DNA of 21,660 nucleotides from a virus: positions 1-21,660 of IMG/VR virus record IMGVR_UViG_3300046722_000157, one strand, 5' to 3'. A model generated the notes under the pieces. It saw only the letters and a list, made by a program, of their open reading frames with translations. It was not told the origin of the DNA and searched no databases. This document shows positions 1 through 19,240 of the stretch, one piece after another. Every line of letters starts with the position of its first letter. The first letter of the stretch is position 1. The translations under genes and the position numbers were made by a program.

Positions 1-258
1 GGTCCAGACGGCGGCGAAATCGGTGGCTCCGCCTGGGTAGGCGTATCCTTCCGCGCCGCCGGCCCGGATCATCGCCTGGGAGGGCGTTCGGATCGCTTCG
101 ATGGCGGCTCGGGCCTGGGCGATACAGACGGCGCGCAGCGGTGTGTGCTGCTGGTCCCATGGGACGGGTCCGTTGGGTCCCAGTTGCGGATCGGCGTCGT
201 AGATCGCGCGGGCGGCGGCTTCGAGGGTGGCGAGGGCGAGGGGTTGGATGAGGGTCAT
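1..258 (-). CDS. Small hypothetical phage protein, 3' end cut by window edge
   Basis: An open frame runs from an ATG at 256-258 off the left edge of the window without a stop; 86 residues are visible. The protein begins MTLIQPLALATLEAAARAIY and continues with PNGPVPWD, an Ala-rich helix (RAVCIAQARAAIEAIR) and a PSQAMIRAGG motif. This reads like the small, Ala-rich hypothetical proteins common in alphaproteobacterial phages that carry an 'IR-PS--M---G' signature; I know of no function for them. The Shine-Dalgarno match is weak (TGGAATCA upstream of the ATG). The gene lies downstream of the helicase gene on the same strand, separated by the AT-rich 259-406 region with inverted repeats, so it probably has its own promoter. 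Confidence 0.65.
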   Translation of the reverse strand, partial: MTLIQPLALATLEAAARAIYDADPQLGPNGPVPWDQQHTPLRAVCIAQARAAIEAIRTPSQAMIRAGGAEGYAYPGGATDFAAVWT

Positions 259-291: not shown

Positions 292-418
292 AATGCGGGT
301 TATGCTACTTTTGCGGGTTTCCCCCAATACCCCGTCACGAAAAACTCGTTACAAAATACGATAATGATTCTAGTGAAAACCTACATGGCGCAACCCGCAA
401 TACTAGCTATCCCGCATT
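292..418. repeat. Paired inverted repeats in AT-rich intergenic region (origin or operator candidate)
   Basis: Two similar arms face each other. The left arm at 292-319 has AATGCGGG and TTTGCGGGTT separated by about 10 nt. The right arm at 392-418 has AACCCGCAA and CCCGCATT with the same layout on the other strand. The hexamer GCGGGT/CCCGCA therefore occurs four times, 17-18 bp apart within each arm, and the arms are separated by about 72 bp of AT-rich DNA. The right arm overlaps the last codons of the helicase gene. The region also holds a small ACGA-AAAAC-TCGT hairpin (about 337-349) and two GAnTC sites (265-269, 366-370). Paired, helically phased sites next to a replicative helicase gene suit an origin or a repressor operator; neither is proven. 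Confidence 0.55.
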
Positions 419-2062
419 TTTGTCTTTTGTCAAAATCCATTTAAGCCGTGAAATATCATTCCGGTTAACTGTGAGTTTGAGGTCTCCTACTCTGTTATTA
501 TTGTTTTTAGCCAACCACTTACCTAATCTCTGGCCTGATATGGAATGGCCACTTCTGTCAGATGCGACGATCATGCAGGCATCCCGGAATGGCTGTCTGA
601 CGAATCCATGCTCGTCCCGTTCGTCAGCGTCTTCGATGAGTTCCGATGCCGTACGACCTGGAATACCCACCCATCCATAGCGTTCCCACGTCCGAAAGAC
701 AGCCGCGCGTGCCGCGCGAATGGGGTCTTCCGAACGGGCGACATCCATGGACAAACAAGGATCGGCACAGCCAAGCCACACCAGGGAGGACCGCACCAAA
801 TTGGACCACCGCTCGAAACTGGCCAGCGCGCGGCAGGGTTTCGGCCTGCCCGCGGCGATGTAGGCCCGTCCGATGGTCAGGCAGGCAGCGATGTAAAGTC
901 CACGGTTAGCCAGGACCATCTGAACCGGATCAGCCTCGAATTCCCGTTCCTCGGGATTTTCCAGATCGGCGTCGAGACGGCACACCAGGGTCCGGCGCAC
1001 CAGATCGGCGGGCGCCGACAGATTGTTGCCGTTGGCGAACACCGTGAAGCTGTTCGCGATGCGCGGCATGTTGCTCGATCCGAGGCCGCGCACCTGAAGA
1101 ATGGGCCGCTCGGTCAACTGATTAAGGAAATCCCCCACCATCATGTCCGAAACATTGTCGATGGCGATGATCTGCTGGCCGGCGAGGGCGGCTCCGATCA
1201 GACGCTTTTCGGTTTCCTCCGGGTTCGGCGCCTGCGCCAGCACGGCGCATCGCTCACCGGTCGATACCGTGGCGGCGATGTCAGCGAGGTAGCTTTTGCC
1301 CGTGCCCGGCTGCGGCGCGGTGGCGACGTGCATGGGCACGGCTGGCAAGAGCGCGCCACGCAGCACCGTGGTCATCACCATGGACAGCGCGACGGCCCGG
1401 CTCGCCTCGTCGGCGAAGGGAAATTCCACCAGCAACCCTTGCAAGGTCTCGATCGCCCGGTCGGCGTCCAGTCGGGTCGGATTATCCGGCACCAGTGGCA
1501 TGACGGGCGGGTTGACCAGCACGAAGCCGGTCGCGTCGTCATAACCAGGCGTTGCCAGGATCGTGCCATCTGGCCGCATGGTCGGAGTGCTGATGACTCC
1601 GGTTATGGGTGGAAACGGCCAATCGCCCGACATGGCGGCAATTTGTTCCACGACTTCGCGTGGCGGGTCGGTGCGAACCGGATCGCCGGTTTTCAGGGCC
1701 TTTTCCCATTCCGCCACGGTGCCGAGCGCGCGGCCCAGGACAGGTAACGTGACCCCGATGATGCCGGCGACCTCGATCACGGTGCCGTCCGAGGTTTTCG
1801 CCTTCGCCATGGATACCCTGACCAGCGAGCGGTCGCGCTGAAAGAACGGAACCTTGGCCCGCGCGAGCGCGATCAGGCCATGATCGGCGGCACGGTGGCG
1901 CAACCCGTTGATAACACGAATGACCGGCTTGGACGGGTCTTCGACCTCGGGATACCATCCTTGATCCGGGTCAGCGTCATGACCATTCACGAGCGGCTTC
2001 TTGCGAGGCGAGCGGCGACGGGGTGTGGGCAGGATCGGCTCATCGAAGAAGTTACCCGCCAT
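407..2062 (-). CDS. Phage replicative AAA+ helicase (primase-helicase C-terminal type)
   Basis: A 551-residue P-loop ATPase resembling the helicase half of phage and prophage primase-helicases. Visible motifs: Walker A APQPGTGKS (about residues 249-257), Walker B IIAIDN (298-303), a sensor-like TVFANGNN (340-346) and a downstream RR pair in DLVRRTLVC (353-361) that fits an arginine finger. The first 240 residues contain an RVINGLRHRAADHGLIAL segment but I see no primase/polymerase active site, so priming may come from another gene. It probably unwinds phage DNA at the replication fork. The ATG at 2062 is preferred over an upstream GTG (2086) because AGGA lies 9 nt before it. The gene overlaps the upstream gene by 11 nt. 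Its end lies inside the right arm of the inverted repeats at 392-418. Confidence 0.8.
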   Translation of the reverse strand: MAGNFFDEPILPTPRRRSPRKKPLVNGHDADPDQGWYPEVEDPSKPVIRVINGLRHRAADHGLIALARAKVPFFQRDRSLVRVSMAKAKTSDGTVIEVAGIIGVTLPVLGRALGTVAEWEKALKTGDPVRTDPPREVVEQIAAMSGDWPFPPITGVISTPTMRPDGTILATPGYDDATGFVLVNPPVMPLVPDNPTRLDADRAIETLQGLLVEFPFADEASRAVALSMVMTTVLRGALLPAVPMHVATAPQPGTGKSYLADIAATVSTGERCAVLAQAPNPEETEKRLIGAALAGQQIIAIDNVSDMMVGDFLNQLTERPILQVRGLGSSNMPRIANSFTVFANGNNLSAPADLVRRTLVCRLDADLENPEEREFEADPVQMVLANRGLYIAACLTIGRAYIAAGRPKPCRALASFERWSNLVRSSLVWLGCADPCLSMDVARSEDPIRAARAAVFRTWERYGWVGIPGRTASELIEDADERDEHGFVRQPFRDACMIVASDRSGHSISGQRLGKWLAKNNNNRVGDLKLTVNRNDISRLKWILTKDKNAG

Positions 2063-4934: not shown

Positions 4935-5866
4935 CACACGTTTTCGATGGCGGCTATCCTGTTCCGCAGATAGGCGATGGCCTTGTCGGCGCGATGCGAT
5001 TCCATCTCGTCCCACGATGCGACGTTCGCGGCGGCGAGCCATTTGTCCACGGTGCCATCTTCCAGCTTGACGATATCCAGTAGGTGACTGATCTCCGCGC
5101 GTTGTTCCGGTGTGATCAGATTGACCGGTTGCGATGGCTCTCGGATCACCGCGATACCGTACATCCGGGCGAAGGTGTCGTAACTGAATTCAAATGTGCT
5201 GGCCTCGGGGAACGCGGCGATGCGGGTTTTCCGCACCCGCCCGATCCGGCGTGGGCCGGCTTTCAGCACCTGCACGGCCAGGTCCAGTTCGTACTCAAGC
5301 CTGGGCCAGCAGTCGAAGATGGTGCCGATCTGCTCGCGCTCGCCATTGGCGCCCTTGCCCCATTCCGCGATTTCGCCGCAGATCAGGATCACGTTCATAT
5401 CCAGGCGAACCAGCCAGTTGACCATGTGGCGCATGTAGTTGACGGCGGGCTTGCGGTCGGCGCCGAACTCGTTCTTCTTGCCAGCATCGGACAACCGTTC
5501 CGCCTCGCGGGCGATTTCGTTGGCGAACAGTTTGGTCGCGCTATCGATCACCAGCGTCTTGCGATCATGGCTTTCGGTGGCGAGCGCCTTGATCTGGCCC
5601 ATGACGACATCGAAGGATGAGGCGCCATCGTCGGGACCGAGATAGAGACCACCCGAGGCGCGCAGCTTCTCGACGTATTCCGGTTGCGTGGCGCCGCCTT
5701 CCACGTCGATCATGTAAACGTCGGGGAAGTCCAGCGCGAAGTAGGTCTTGCCCACACCAGACGCGCCGTAAACCAGGATTTTTGGTTTGCGCAGCTTGAC
5801 CGCTTCAGGTTTCACGGCCAGCAGCTTCGATCTCTTCGTCCTTATCGCGGCGGTTCCGTCCGGCAT
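4934..5866 (-). CDS. RecA-like recombination ATPase (AAA_24 / Sak4-type)
   Basis: A 310-residue P-loop NTPase of the phage nucleotide-binding protein type. Walker A is GASGVGKT (34-41), and a DVEGG motif (54-58) and Walker B TLVIDS (104-109) follow. These proteins (Sak4-like) are small RecA relatives that promote single-strand annealing with a phage ssDNA-binding protein, and the DUF669-type SSB two genes downstream fits that pairing. The ATG at 5866 is chosen because AAAGGAAG precedes it by 4-5 nt; an earlier ATG at 5944 lies wholly inside the RHH gene and lacks a ribosome site. The start overlaps the 3' end of the RHH gene by 62 nt, unusually long for this window. The C-terminal 70 residues include ITPEQRAEISHLLDIV, a helical region probably used for partner contacts. 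Confidence 0.85.
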   Translation of the reverse strand: MPDGTAAIRTKRSKLLAVKPEAVKLRKPKILVYGASGVGKTYFALDFPDVYMIDVEGGATQPEYVEKLRASGGLYLGPDDGASSFDVVMGQIKALATESHDRKTLVIDSATKLFANEIAREAERLSDAGKKNEFGADRKPAVNYMRHMVNWLVRLDMNVILICGEIAEWGKGANGEREQIGTIFDCWPRLEYELDLAVQVLKAGPRRIGRVRKTRIAAFPEASTFEFSYDTFARMYGIAVIREPSQPVNLITPEQRAEISHLLDIVKLEDGTVDKWLAAANVASWDEMESHRADKAIAYLRNRIAAIENV

Positions 5867-6103: not shown

Positions 6104-6328
6104 TCATGCCGATTCCAAAGCGAGCCACGCCTGGTTCTCCGCGTATTCCCACATGTACGAATTGGATGCGTAGCACCACGCGGCGGGGATAGCCTTGAAC
6201 GAAATCCCGTTGAACATGGCGATCCACCGCGCGCTCATCTCGGATCGAGGAAAGTTGGCCGCGATACTGGTAAAGCCCGCCGCGCGCAGTTGTTCCGGCG
6301 TGACCGGCGGTGGTGTCCAGGGCGTCAT
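6104..6328 (-). CDS. Hypothetical protein, last gene of XRE-headed operon
   Basis: A 74-residue protein (MTPWTPPPVTPEQLRAAGFT...) unusually rich in Trp, Ala and Met, with RWIAMFNGISFKAIPAAWCY and YMWEYAENQAW segments. I recognise no family; no membrane segment is convincing. GGAAGG lies 5 nt before the ATG, and the start overlaps the preceding stop (ATGA at 6325-6328), so it is the last translationally coupled gene before the terminator at 6044-6073. Confidence 0.65.
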   Translation of the reverse strand: MTPWTPPPVTPEQLRAAGFTSIAANFPRSEMSARWIAMFNGISFKAIPAAWCYASNSYMWEYAENQAWLALESA

Positions 6329-8694: not shown

Positions 8695-9274
8695 TTGCGG
8701 CTTCCTGAAATAAGTCATCTCGGAGAATGATATTCTCAGACGCCATTTTCTCAAACACAGAGTATACTCTTATTCTGTTATTATACCCTGATATAATACC
8801 CACGCACGCGACGAACCGCGTATCCTTCGGCGGGGAGGGCAGAATGTAATGGATCAGGCCGCAGCGTTGCCCCGGTTCCAGCGCGTCGAGCATGTTCGCG
8901 ATCAGCGCGTTCGGTTTGGGGTACATCGCCGCTCCGGGCGAATACGATGCCGCGTCGTCCAATGAATAGGGCGGATCGGCCAGCATCGCCTTGAAACCGG
9001 GTGGCAGCGGCCGGCGCGCATCTTGCAGAAAATCGGGCGCGCATTCCGGGTCCATGTCGAGGGTCTGGTCGTTGGGTCCGAAGCCGCCGCGGTAGGGGTA
9101 GAGCCGCGCGAGGCCACCGCAAACGTGCAGCACGGGATCGTTGATGGTAACGCCCAGCAGGGCGCGGGCGCGCTCGGGGAAGCCTCCAAGGTAAGAACCG
9201 TAACGCTTAATGCCGCCTTTTAGTTTGGCACGAGCAAGAAACCACGTATCTGCCAGCGGCCTGTAATTGGTCAT
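8687..9274 (-). CDS. Putative DNA methyltransferase
   Basis: A 195-residue Rossmann-type methyltransferase candidate. VLHVCGGLARLYP (48-60) is placed like the SAM-binding motif I, LDMDPE (72-77) like the acidic motif II, and LADPPYS (98-104) is the catalytic DPPY motif IV seen in N6-adenine and N4-cytosine methylases. No FGG motif I and no separate target-recognition domain are visible; the protein matches the short phage 'DPPYS' enzymes rather than full restriction-system methylases. It may methylate phage DNA to evade host restriction or to tune gene expression alongside the GcrA-like protein. The start overlaps the upstream stop (ATGA, 9271-9274); the last ~30 codons become AT-rich as the HNH gene is approached. 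Confidence 0.65.
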   Translation of the reverse strand: MTNYRPLADTWFLARAKLKGGIKRYGSYLGGFPERARALLGVTINDPVLHVCGGLARLYPYRGGFGPNDQTLDMDPECAPDFLQDARRPLPPGFKAMLADPPYSLDDAASYSPGAAMYPKPNALIANMLDALEPGQRCGLIHYILPSPPKDTRFVACVGIISGYNNRIRVYSVFEKMASENIILRDDLFQEAASV

Positions 9275-9492: not shown

Positions 9493-9689
9493 GCCACCCG
9501 CCTCCCGAACCGCTTCAGCCAGCACGCGCGGCACAGCACGACGCAAGCCACGCCCGCTTCGGTGGCCTTTTGTCGGCGCGTGAAAAGGTCGATGGCATCC
9601 AGCCGCACCGGCGCCAGGCCGGGCCGGATGGCGAACGGCGGGGCGCCACACGGGCAGGCGGCGGTGGTGAGCGTGGGGTCAGATGTCAT
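9489..9689 (-). CDS. Hypothetical zinc-ribbon-like protein
   Basis: A 66-residue protein, MTSDPTLTTAACPCGAPPFA..., with two cysteine pairs, CPCG near residue 12 and CRAC near residue 57, separated by about 45 residues. This is the spacing of a small zinc ribbon. The tail is basic (WLKRFGRRVA), compatible with nucleic acid binding. The start overlaps the end of the PP-loop gene as ATGA (9686-9689). Confidence 0.6.
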   Translation of the reverse strand: MTSDPTLTTAACPCGAPPFAIRPGLAPVRLDAIDLFTRRQKATEAGVACVVLCRACWLKRFGRRVA

Positions 9690-10435
9690 GTTCCGCACAT
9701 GCCCTCGCAATCCTCGCCAAATAAATTGGCTTGTCCGCGCTCCTCCCACGAGCGCAGATCGACCTCATCGATGGGCACGCGAGCCGGGTGCATGAACTGA
9801 CCGGTGGCCGCGAGGCGATGCGAGATCGCGACGGTTGCCGCCCACTCAGGTTGCGCGCGACGATCCTTCCAGTCGGCGGTTGAAAGTAGCGGGCACCCGC
9901 AACAGGCGCTTCGTGGCGTGTCGAGCCCCCATCTGTCCAAACGACCACGGCAATCCGCGCGGGTCATCTCGCGCTCGATCAATGGCCAACGATTGTTGAT
10001 ATAACCGACACGCGACGGCTTCATGCGGTGCGCCTCATCGCGGCTGATGCCAATCCACATTTCACAGCCGTCTTTTGGCGTCTTGTCACCCAGGAGTTCG
10101 CGAACCTTACGGCGGATCGGGACTAATTTGTACCAGTTCGTGCATTGCCGCTTGCCGATACCGTTCGGCAAAGTGAACCACGGAATTGGATTGAAACCGT
10201 CAGTCGCGATGGTGTCGCGAATATCTCCGTTGTCCACGCGAATGACGGGAAACGGCAGTAACTTTTCAAGGCGGTTCAGATGGTCGTAAACCGCACACGG
10301 TTCCCAACCGGTATCGGCGAAGATGGCGCAGTCAGGCATCGGTCCTATTTCACCGGCTGCCGCCATGAGTGCCAGTGTGGTGGACTGAACCCCGGCCCCT
10401 AAACTCAGGACACGCAAGCGTGGTTCACGCGGCAT
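9686..10435 (-). CDS. PP-loop (PAPS reductase-like) ATP pyrophosphatase
   Basis: A 249-residue adenine-nucleotide alpha-hydrolase of the phosphoadenosine phosphosulfate reductase type. The PP-loop is SLGAGVQS (11-18), followed by FADTGWEP (39-46), the cysteine motif QCTNWYKLVP (97-106), GISRDEAHRMKPSR (129-142) and a cysteine cluster SACCGCPLL (176-184). The combination of one central Cys (98) and a later C..C pair (178, 181) could bind an iron-sulfur cluster or carry a persulfide. Members of this family in phages are usually annotated as PAPS reductases but sit next to DNA modification genes, and relatives (DndC, TtcA) insert sulfur into nucleic acids. Here it lies two genes from a DPPY methyltransferase, so nucleic acid modification is plausible; a role in sulfate metabolism is less so. 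It overlaps the upstream gene by 11 nt. Confidence 0.8.
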   Translation of the reverse strand: MPREPRLRVLSLGAGVQSTTLALMAAAGEIGPMPDCAIFADTGWEPCAVYDHLNRLEKLLPFPVIRVDNGDIRDTIATDGFNPIPWFTLPNGIGKRQCTNWYKLVPIRRKVRELLGDKTPKDGCEMWIGISRDEAHRMKPSRVGYINNRWPLIEREMTRADCRGRLDRWGLDTPRSACCGCPLLSTADWKDRRAQPEWAATVAISHRLAATGQFMHPARVPIDEVDLRSWEERGQANLFGEDCEGMCGT

Positions 10436-18299: not shown

Positions 18300-19040
18300 T
18301 CAGGCTAAATCCTGTGAGGCGATCTGGCACAGGAAATCGCACGCGGGCGCCAATGGATTGAGCGTCGGCCAGTTCGCCGGTATCTCGTCAATGAATATCC
18401 GCTCGTTGGCGATCCGCGTCAGTCGCGCACCAAGCCGCCGCGAGAGTTCCGCCATGCGCGAGAACTGAGCGGGGAAGTGCAGACGCATCGCGGACCAGTA
18501 ATCCGGCGACGTGGCCTTGCCGCACGGGAGGCAGTTATTATTTTGGAAACCTAACGAATACATCACGGGCAGCGCGATCCCCGCGCCCTGAACCATCGCG
18601 AGACAGGCCGCCTTGTCCAGTCCCGCCGTGATCAGCGGGTTCTCGATGGTCAGTTCGTGGAACACCTTCGCGAGCCGTTCGGCGCGGGTCTGATCGGTCG
18701 CATCGCAGGTGTAGCCAAAGATGTGAATATCATCGGCATACTGAAACGCATGACGCGGCGCGACTTTGAGAATGCCAGTGCAAGGTGCTCCGTCTGGCCC
18801 GGCTATGAACCGGCGCCGCTCCCATACGTCCCAGGTGTCCTCATACTCATCTGAGTGCAGTCGGATCACGGATACGCCCCACCAGCGTTCGCAGTCGCGT
18901 AGGAAGCGTTCGTTGTCGGGATGCTCGGCGCGGGTTTCGCAGTAGGCCACCACGCCGCCGGGGTGGCCGCGCAGATCGAGCGCGATGGCAACCGCGCTAG
19001 CGGCACCGCAGCCGAACCAGCGGATGCGGCGTCGTTCCAT
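18300..19040 (-). CDS. Second PP-loop (PAPS reductase-like) enzyme
   Basis: A 246-residue adenine-nucleotide alpha-hydrolase. The PP-loop is WFGCGAASAVA (8-18), followed by YCETRAEHPDN (33-43), GAPCTGILK with Cys87, GYTCDATDQTRAERL (109-123) and the cysteine pair NNCLPCGKA (Cys170, Cys173). The order (PP-loop, central 'CT' cysteine, 'G...D...R', C..C) mirrors the enzyme at 9686-10435, though the sequences differ strongly. The ATG at 19040 has AAGGGG 5 nt upstream and puts the PP-loop strand at the N-terminus; the earlier ATG at 19061 overlaps the preceding stop (TGATG) and is the alternative. It could carry out sulfur transfer or nucleotide activation for nucleic acid modification. Confidence 0.75.
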   Translation of the reverse strand: MERRRIRWFGCGAASAVAIALDLRGHPGGVVAYCETRAEHPDNERFLRDCERWWGVSVIRLHSDEYEDTWDVWERRRFIAGPDGAPCTGILKVAPRHAFQYADDIHIFGYTCDATDQTRAERLAKVFHELTIENPLITAGLDKAACLAMVQGAGIALPVMYSLGFQNNNCLPCGKATSPDYWSAMRLHFPAQFSRMAELSRRLGARLTRIANERIFIDEIPANWPTLNPLAPACDFLCQIASQDLA

Positions 19041-19060
19041 CAATGCCCCTTTGTTGAACA

Positions 19061-19240
19061 TCAGTCATCAACCTCAACGATCGTGGTTGTCAGGACTACC
19101 AGTTCTGCCTCTATCTGTTCAGCGCGCCGCATCAGAATGTTGGCTTCGCAACGAAGACTGTTGATCGTTGCCCGTCTATCCTGGAGGTATTCAGGCAGGT
19201 TCATATTATCCCATTTGAACTTATATGTCTGATCACCCAC
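19061..19240 (-). CDS. Small hypothetical helical protein (GTG start)
   Basis: A 59-residue protein, VGDQTYKFKWDNMNLPEYLQ then DRRATINSLRCEANILMRRA, ending in an acidic strand (VVLTTTIVEVDD). The GTG at 19240 is taken as start because a perfect AGGAGG lies 6 nt upstream; the ATG 12 codons later lacks one. The helical part looks like a short coiled coil. Its stop overlaps a possible start of the PP-loop gene (TGATG). The gene is somewhat more AT-rich than its neighbours. Confidence 0.65.
   Translation of the reverse strand: MGDQTYKFKWDNMNLPEYLQDRRATINSLRCEANILMRRAEQIEAELVVLTTTIVEVDD

Follow-up and report, generated by a model that had tools for sequence, protein, structure and literature searches.

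Facing arrays of 9-bp iterons behind an SF3-like helicase gene mark a putative replication origin in tailed phages and plasmids

The window analyzed here, a complete IMG/VR record of 21,660 bases (IMGVR_UViG_3300046722_000157), contains a gene for a predicted helicase that is followed by a gap with two facing repeat arrays and then by a small gene on the same strand (Table 1). The paired facing repeats proposed for this place are present, with spacings of 18 bp and 17 bp, and lie at the end of the helicase gene as claimed, with the correction that the proximal array overlaps the last codons and the stop codon of that gene (407-409). Three of the four copies match the hexamer GCGGGT exactly; the outer right copy reads GCGGGA. 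The core of 73 bp (319-391) is AT-rich relative to the window as a whole (40% AT), but the most AT-rich 73-bp stretch lies elsewhere, at 8726; stretches starting at 398 and 300 rank third and sixth. The GAnTC sites suggested near both core ends were not found there: the stretch from 255 to 445 has only two, one outside the arms at 265 and one within the core at 366.

Table 1. Coordinates of the features at the helicase gene end of the window
Feature	Position	Strand	Details
Distal iteron array, facing the proximal array	294..320	+	Units TGCGGGTTA, TGCTACTTT (middle, decayed), TGCGGGTTT
AT-rich core between the arrays, putative melting region	321..390		58% AT over 319-391
Proximal iteron array	391..416	-	Units TGCGGGATA (416-408), GCTAGTAT (407-400; 8 nt, decayed), TGCGGGTTG (399-391)
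Helicase, 559 aa	407..2086	-	Relatives of phrog_29234 and phrog_10537; no Pfam match
Helicase C-terminal domain, approximately residues 465-559	410..694	-	Predicted winged-helix topology; co-varies with iteron sequence
Small gene 3' of the site	1..258	-	ATG at 258 (start by eye), runs off the record; phrog_33473

The pattern TGCGGG-n-TGCGGG occurs exactly twice in the window, once on each strand (294-317, plus; 394-416, minus), against an expectation of 0.06; two occurrences were reached in none of 100 shuffles. First-order Markov simulations of the window (300 runs) never produced the complete facing layout. One such arm by itself is frequent by chance, with at least 119 such stretches in a scan of the collection, and facing three-unit arrays around those matches score at most 0.61. 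Among the matches listed, the window repeat stands on both sides only in L012, L077, and L110, which are near-identical siblings of the window.

The structure of the helicase was modeled with AlphaFold2 (mean pLDDT 82.5). The protein matches no Pfam family and, at E ≤ 1, no PDB sequence, and the top fold match of the model is the SaPI5 primase-helicase (7om0; Z 13.2, rmsd 5.9, 364 residues aligned), tied with the vaccinia D5 protein (8apl; Z 13.0) and followed by the C-terminal region of NrS-1 (Z 11.2) and the MCM or E1 helicases (about 10). The modeled fold is thus of the D5/SF3-like primase-helicase type. Its C-terminus is predicted to form a helix-helix-helix-strand-strand arrangement, which is the winged-helix topology. 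For the isolated C-terminal domain, Foldseek gave no match at E ≤ 0.001, and a second structure comparison gave Z scores of at most 5.5, with Fur, ORC2, and MarR-type proteins mixed with unrelated hits; with fold matches this weak, the winged-helix call is based on topology. A Prim-Pol domain is present in the same protein in two viral relatives (L008 and L143) and in that of plasmid pMNOD06, and is lacking in the 559-aa window helicase; no primase was seen among the window ORFs scanned.

Seven viral loci were found with the helicase protein and 25 with an alignment of five relatives. In most of them, the same primase-helicase gene is directly followed by a pair of facing 27-bp arrays, which consist of three 9-bp units apiece and are separated by an AT-rich core of 50-110 bp. 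To score the layout, we used a detector based on the 15 unit pairs of two three-unit arms and applied it to the 4 kb surrounding the helicase gene end in 18 non-redundant viral loci, including the window, plus six annotated phages. Near-identical or repeated loci (L002-L004, L128-L131, L135, L141, L144, and L146) were excluded before counting, as were L134, where the contig ends inside the gene, and L150, a fragment. The best place in the 4 kb is the helicase gene end in 14 of the 18 viral loci, i.e., at the stop of the initiator gene in the window and in 13 of the 17 others (L005, L006, L007, L008, L132, L133, L148, L139, L140, L142, L143, L147, and L149). Twelve of these 14 score above the best of six block shuffles, while the window (0.563) ties with the shuffle maximum and L140 (0.556) falls below it. 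The helicase frame of L140 has a stop at 5419 and its homology continues in another frame to 5545, a frameshift or sequencing error; the sequence behind the helicase gene of L141 is the same as that of L140. The layout was not detected in the remaining four loci (L136, L137, L138, and L145), of which L138 has 8-bp-like units (z 6.3-6.7). The six annotated phages (L151-L156), at approximately 30% identity, have no array at period 9, and at other periods, scanned in three of them, z reaches at most 3.9. L138 and the plasmid pCM32 (L164), both 8-bp-like, were left out of the counts.

Of 16 loci scanned at periods 6-13, 14 had their highest z at a period of 9, which gave a summed z of 173.9 versus at most 33.9 for every other period. 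In five whole contigs of 33-85 kb, the site was the top place in four, scoring 0.711-0.859 versus 0.578-0.637 for the next place, and all eight array-like triplets in those four contigs are at the site and nowhere else; the fifth contig, L136, has no such array place. The core is richer in AT than the surrounding DNA in all 12 loci compared. The contigs L005, L008, L132, and L148 encode portal, major head, or large terminase proteins, and L006 and L007 encode large terminases; relatives with the layout are therefore phages rather than satellites. Among the ORFs scanned in the window fragment there is no portal, major head, or large terminase gene. DNA comparison gave no close phage relatives, and a search of genome contigs returned 65 stretches, none confirmed to encode a relative.

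The original prediction had looked to conservation of the hexamers and to GC skew as signs of an origin. It is the array layout that is conserved in relatives, while the hexamer sequence itself differs between clades, and a GC-skew extremum coincides with the site in only one of five contigs, at that contig's end. There is no common core motif: the best 8-mer is found in 7 of 14 cores, and shuffles also reach 7. The relatives also explain the appearance of the window arrays, whose 9-bp unit was deduced from them: the 17-18-bp spacing reads as two 9-bp units of which the middle one has decayed, so that only two units per arm are obvious. The decayed middle units, together with one spacer of 8 bp, account for the narrow lead of the three-unit score at the site over the next place in the window (0.563 versus 0.548).

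The unit sequence varies by clade, with GCGGGTTT-like, TGCAGGAT, TCCGTTTCC, GGGGACCT, and GCGGGGGAT forms, and this variation follows the helicase C-terminus. L007 compared with L133 and L148 has a helicase core that is 95 and 92% identical and a C-terminal domain that is 42 and 40% identical. The DNA between the arrays is 81 and 78% identical (69 and 66 of 85 aligned bases), and yet both arrays are unrelated (0.45-0.48 versus a shuffle mean of 0.44). By sequence comparison this is a natural swap, in which a change in the C-terminal domain is accompanied by a change in both arrays. Lying next to the gene, the left array could have been transferred along with the C-terminal domain; the change in the right array needs a separate explanation, because the conserved core separates it from the gene. 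It is also conceivable that one exchange, with a donor whose core was similar, accounts for the whole change.

The same association holds across loci. In a partial Mantel test on 66 pairs from 12 loci, iteron similarity was correlated with C-terminal identity after controlling for core identity (r 0.66, p 0.0002), whereas the correlation with core identity after controlling for the C-terminus was -0.20. The p value is only a guide, because identities among 12 related loci depend on one another. L140 was omitted because of its broken frame, and the start of the window proximal array was set by hand for the Mantel, core-motif, and sliding-window/swap comparisons. With 95-residue sliding windows, the correlation is negative up to residues 374-468, positive only where the windows reach into the C-terminal part, and 0.66 only at the C-terminus. 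Taken alone, the left and right arrays give 0.61 and 0.63, respectively. This co-change supports recognition of the iterons by the C-terminal domain of the initiator.

The co-change also bears on two other functions for the site. It could be an operator, at which a phage repressor of the RHH or XRE type, or the helicase itself, controls transcription of the downstream gene. The arrays do sit in the gap ahead of a co-directional gene, the window encodes short RHH-like (by eye) and HTH-like proteins, and helicase binding could also regulate its own operon. However, unit sequence tracks the helicase C-terminal domain and no other part of the protein, the genes behind the site vary among relatives (by eye), and the gap holds no promoter-like site; between 260 and 410 of the window, neither a terminator- nor a promoter-like site was seen in a scan that covered sigma-70-like promoters. 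We give an operator in general little credence. Between the origin and the operator that the original prediction offered for this site, placement, conserved arrays, C-terminal co-change, and occurrence in plasmids favor the origin, and an RHH/XRE operator, for which support was not found, is unlikely. Iteron-like arrays serve in partition too, so the site might instead be a centromere-like partition site or a recombination site that adjoins the helicase gene by chance of module order; given that the arrays change together with the helicase C-terminal domain, this is highly improbable.

A different kind of origin has been proposed for pRN1, whose essential site, as here, lies just 3' of the gene for a protein with primase, SF3 helicase, and winged-helix parts, orf904 (PMC4234260). 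There the authors state that iterons are absent and propose recognition of a stem-loop, in contrast to the direct 9-bp units in each arm here, and they extend the proposal to proteins with the same three parts, including that of Bordetella phage BIP-1, which has a stem-loop at the corresponding place (PMC4234260). Applied to the present site, a large stem-loop or cruciform would be recognized by the replication protein as a structure, rather than through its 9-bp units. Positions 288-422 of the window do fold as single-stranded DNA (-26 kcal/mol, z -4.96), and units that would pair in the stem are more alike (0.846) than non-partners (0.789), with partners the more alike in nine of 12 loci, equal in two, and less alike in one; iterons alone would require neither the fold nor the likeness. 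Direct repeats inside an arm are not expected from a stem-loop, but units of the same arm are alike (identity 0.773) and the 9-bp period is prominent. A pRN1-type stem-loop without iterons does not fit the direct 9-bp units within the arms, though a stem can form, and recognition of structure in place of the units is unlikely. A cruciform may still have an added role, since stem partners are slightly more alike and the strand folds.

Facing 9-bp units are also found near the primase gene of BPP-1, the sister phage of BIP-1, which again speaks against a stem-loop without iterons. In BPP-1 (L184, NC_005357.1), facing arrays of GTTTGCCTC with an AT-rich core lie at approximately 26605-26712, between bbp27 and bbp28 and 464 bases behind the D5-type primase gene, and score 0.704 versus 0.60 in shuffles. 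No array directly follows the stop codon of the primase gene, where the best z at period 9 is 2.0. The primase has the Pfam domains D5_N, PriCT_2, and Prim-Pol, and hhalign of the helicase profile against it gave no relation. The BPP-1 arrays may be relevant to BIP-1, for which a stem-loop has been reported 3' of the replication gene.

The layout extends to plasmids. We found 22 plasmid records with a helicase homolog and examined eight. Clear arrays stand 8-20 bp behind the homologous gene in three alphaproteobacterial records, Azospirillum lipoferum AZO_p2, Methylobacterium tardum pMt-1, and M. nodulans pMNOD06 (12.6 kb). AZO_p2 has six perfect AGTGGGTTT units, and the region is probably a prophage, because a large terminase gene lies about 2 kb further on. 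The 6.5-kb Psychrobacter plasmid pA32H2 (L162) has facing 10-bp units of GGTAGGGATA (z 8.1, period free) behind position 6271 and across the record start, following a primase-helicase-like gene; the unit length is therefore not 9 everywhere. Units of 8 bp are found in pCM32 (z 9.3, five of six matching). Locus L161 is weak (z 3.4), and the plasmid loci L160 and L163 have no arrays.

The position behind a D5/SaPI5-like helicase gene, the conserved facing arrays, the C-terminal co-change, and the presence in plasmids together favor an origin. The site is very probably a phage replication origin at which the C-terminal winged-helix domain of its own AAA+/SF3-like helicase binds the facing arrays, and its best reading is an origin of the SaPI/PICI type, used by tailed phages and plasmids, on which the helicase loads itself. 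SaPI/PICI origins, like the site here, are described as lying directly 3' of the replication helicase gene, with two iteron sets around an AT-rich region, and their iterons as recognized by the C-terminal domain of the initiator (PMC7581432, PMC6092414), a role suggested here by the co-change. The fold likeness of the window helicase to the SaPI5 protein points the same way. In contrast to the SaPI/PICI satellites, the relatives here are phages, and the window helicase has no sequence match to solved relatives. The rule here is 3+3 units of 9 bp, in a comparison that covers the arrangement rather than the numbers and lengths of PICI iterons. At the putative origin of SCCmec, the helicase Cch2 is described as needing a direct-repeat region of 23 bp that contains three iterons, lies downstream of the helicase gene as here, and is bound by the helicase C-terminal domain; unlike here, the account gives one direct-repeat set and not two facing sets, and inverted repeats can be deleted without loss of binding (PMC7581432). 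In the description of phage P4 alpha, as in our proposal, the winged helix of a primase-helicase binds origin repeats, and the primase is of the TOPRIM type (PMC4234260); the comparison is with the P4 protein and not with its repeats.

In the mechanism that we propose, the helicase would bind both of the facing iteron arrays that directly follow its gene. The three 9-bp sites of each array would hold a single helicase hexamer, with the two hexamers facing each other. The AT-rich core would then melt, and the helicases would load and unwind outward, with priming starting two forks. The single hexamer per array, the melting of the core, and the two forks are postulated from the parallels with Cch2 and the PICI origins.

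In 2018, the PICI authors described their layout, two iteron sets flanking an AT-rich region, as found in no other known bacterial replicon (PMC6092414), and among open-licence papers, judged by title or displayed abstract, we found none describing such facing iteron arrays in phages. Two things appear new here. One is a probable PICI-type origin that follows a 3 x 9-bp rule and accompanies a helicase family of tailed phages and plasmids with no Pfam assignment. The other is a natural swap, which on the alignments ties the arrays to the helicase C-terminus. The layout in full phages, a prophage, and plasmids would alter the view of it as specific to satellites. Two facing 3 x 9-bp arrays behind a helicase gene would be a simple rule for locating the origins of metagenomic phages, and the natural domain swap supplies paired proteins and arrays with which the DNA-recognition code of the helicase is directly testable. 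There is about an even chance, in our estimation, that facing 3 x 9-bp arrays, recognized by an SF3-type helicase through its C-terminal winged helix, form a general class of origin. Tailed phages, prophages, plasmids, and satellites would share this class, and its recognition module would be exchangeable, with the domain and both arrays switching together. If so, the PICI origin would be one branch and not unique, the stem-loop of pRN1 and BIP-1 would in part be a misread iteron pair, and phages might switch origin specificity, thereby escaping incompatibility or satellites that borrow their helicase.

By eye, the middle units of both arms deviate from the outer ones in mirror symmetry in the window (294-320/391-416), L132, and L007, a feature that a plain iteron model does not require. 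Six records (L002, L003, L004, L012, L077, and L110) differ from the window at no more than one position over 6-8 kb; they come from metagenome sets 3300046543, 3300046817, and 3300047322, among others. The window also encodes two phosphoadenosine-phosphosulfate-reductase-like genes (phrog_424), at 9686-10435 and 18300-19061.
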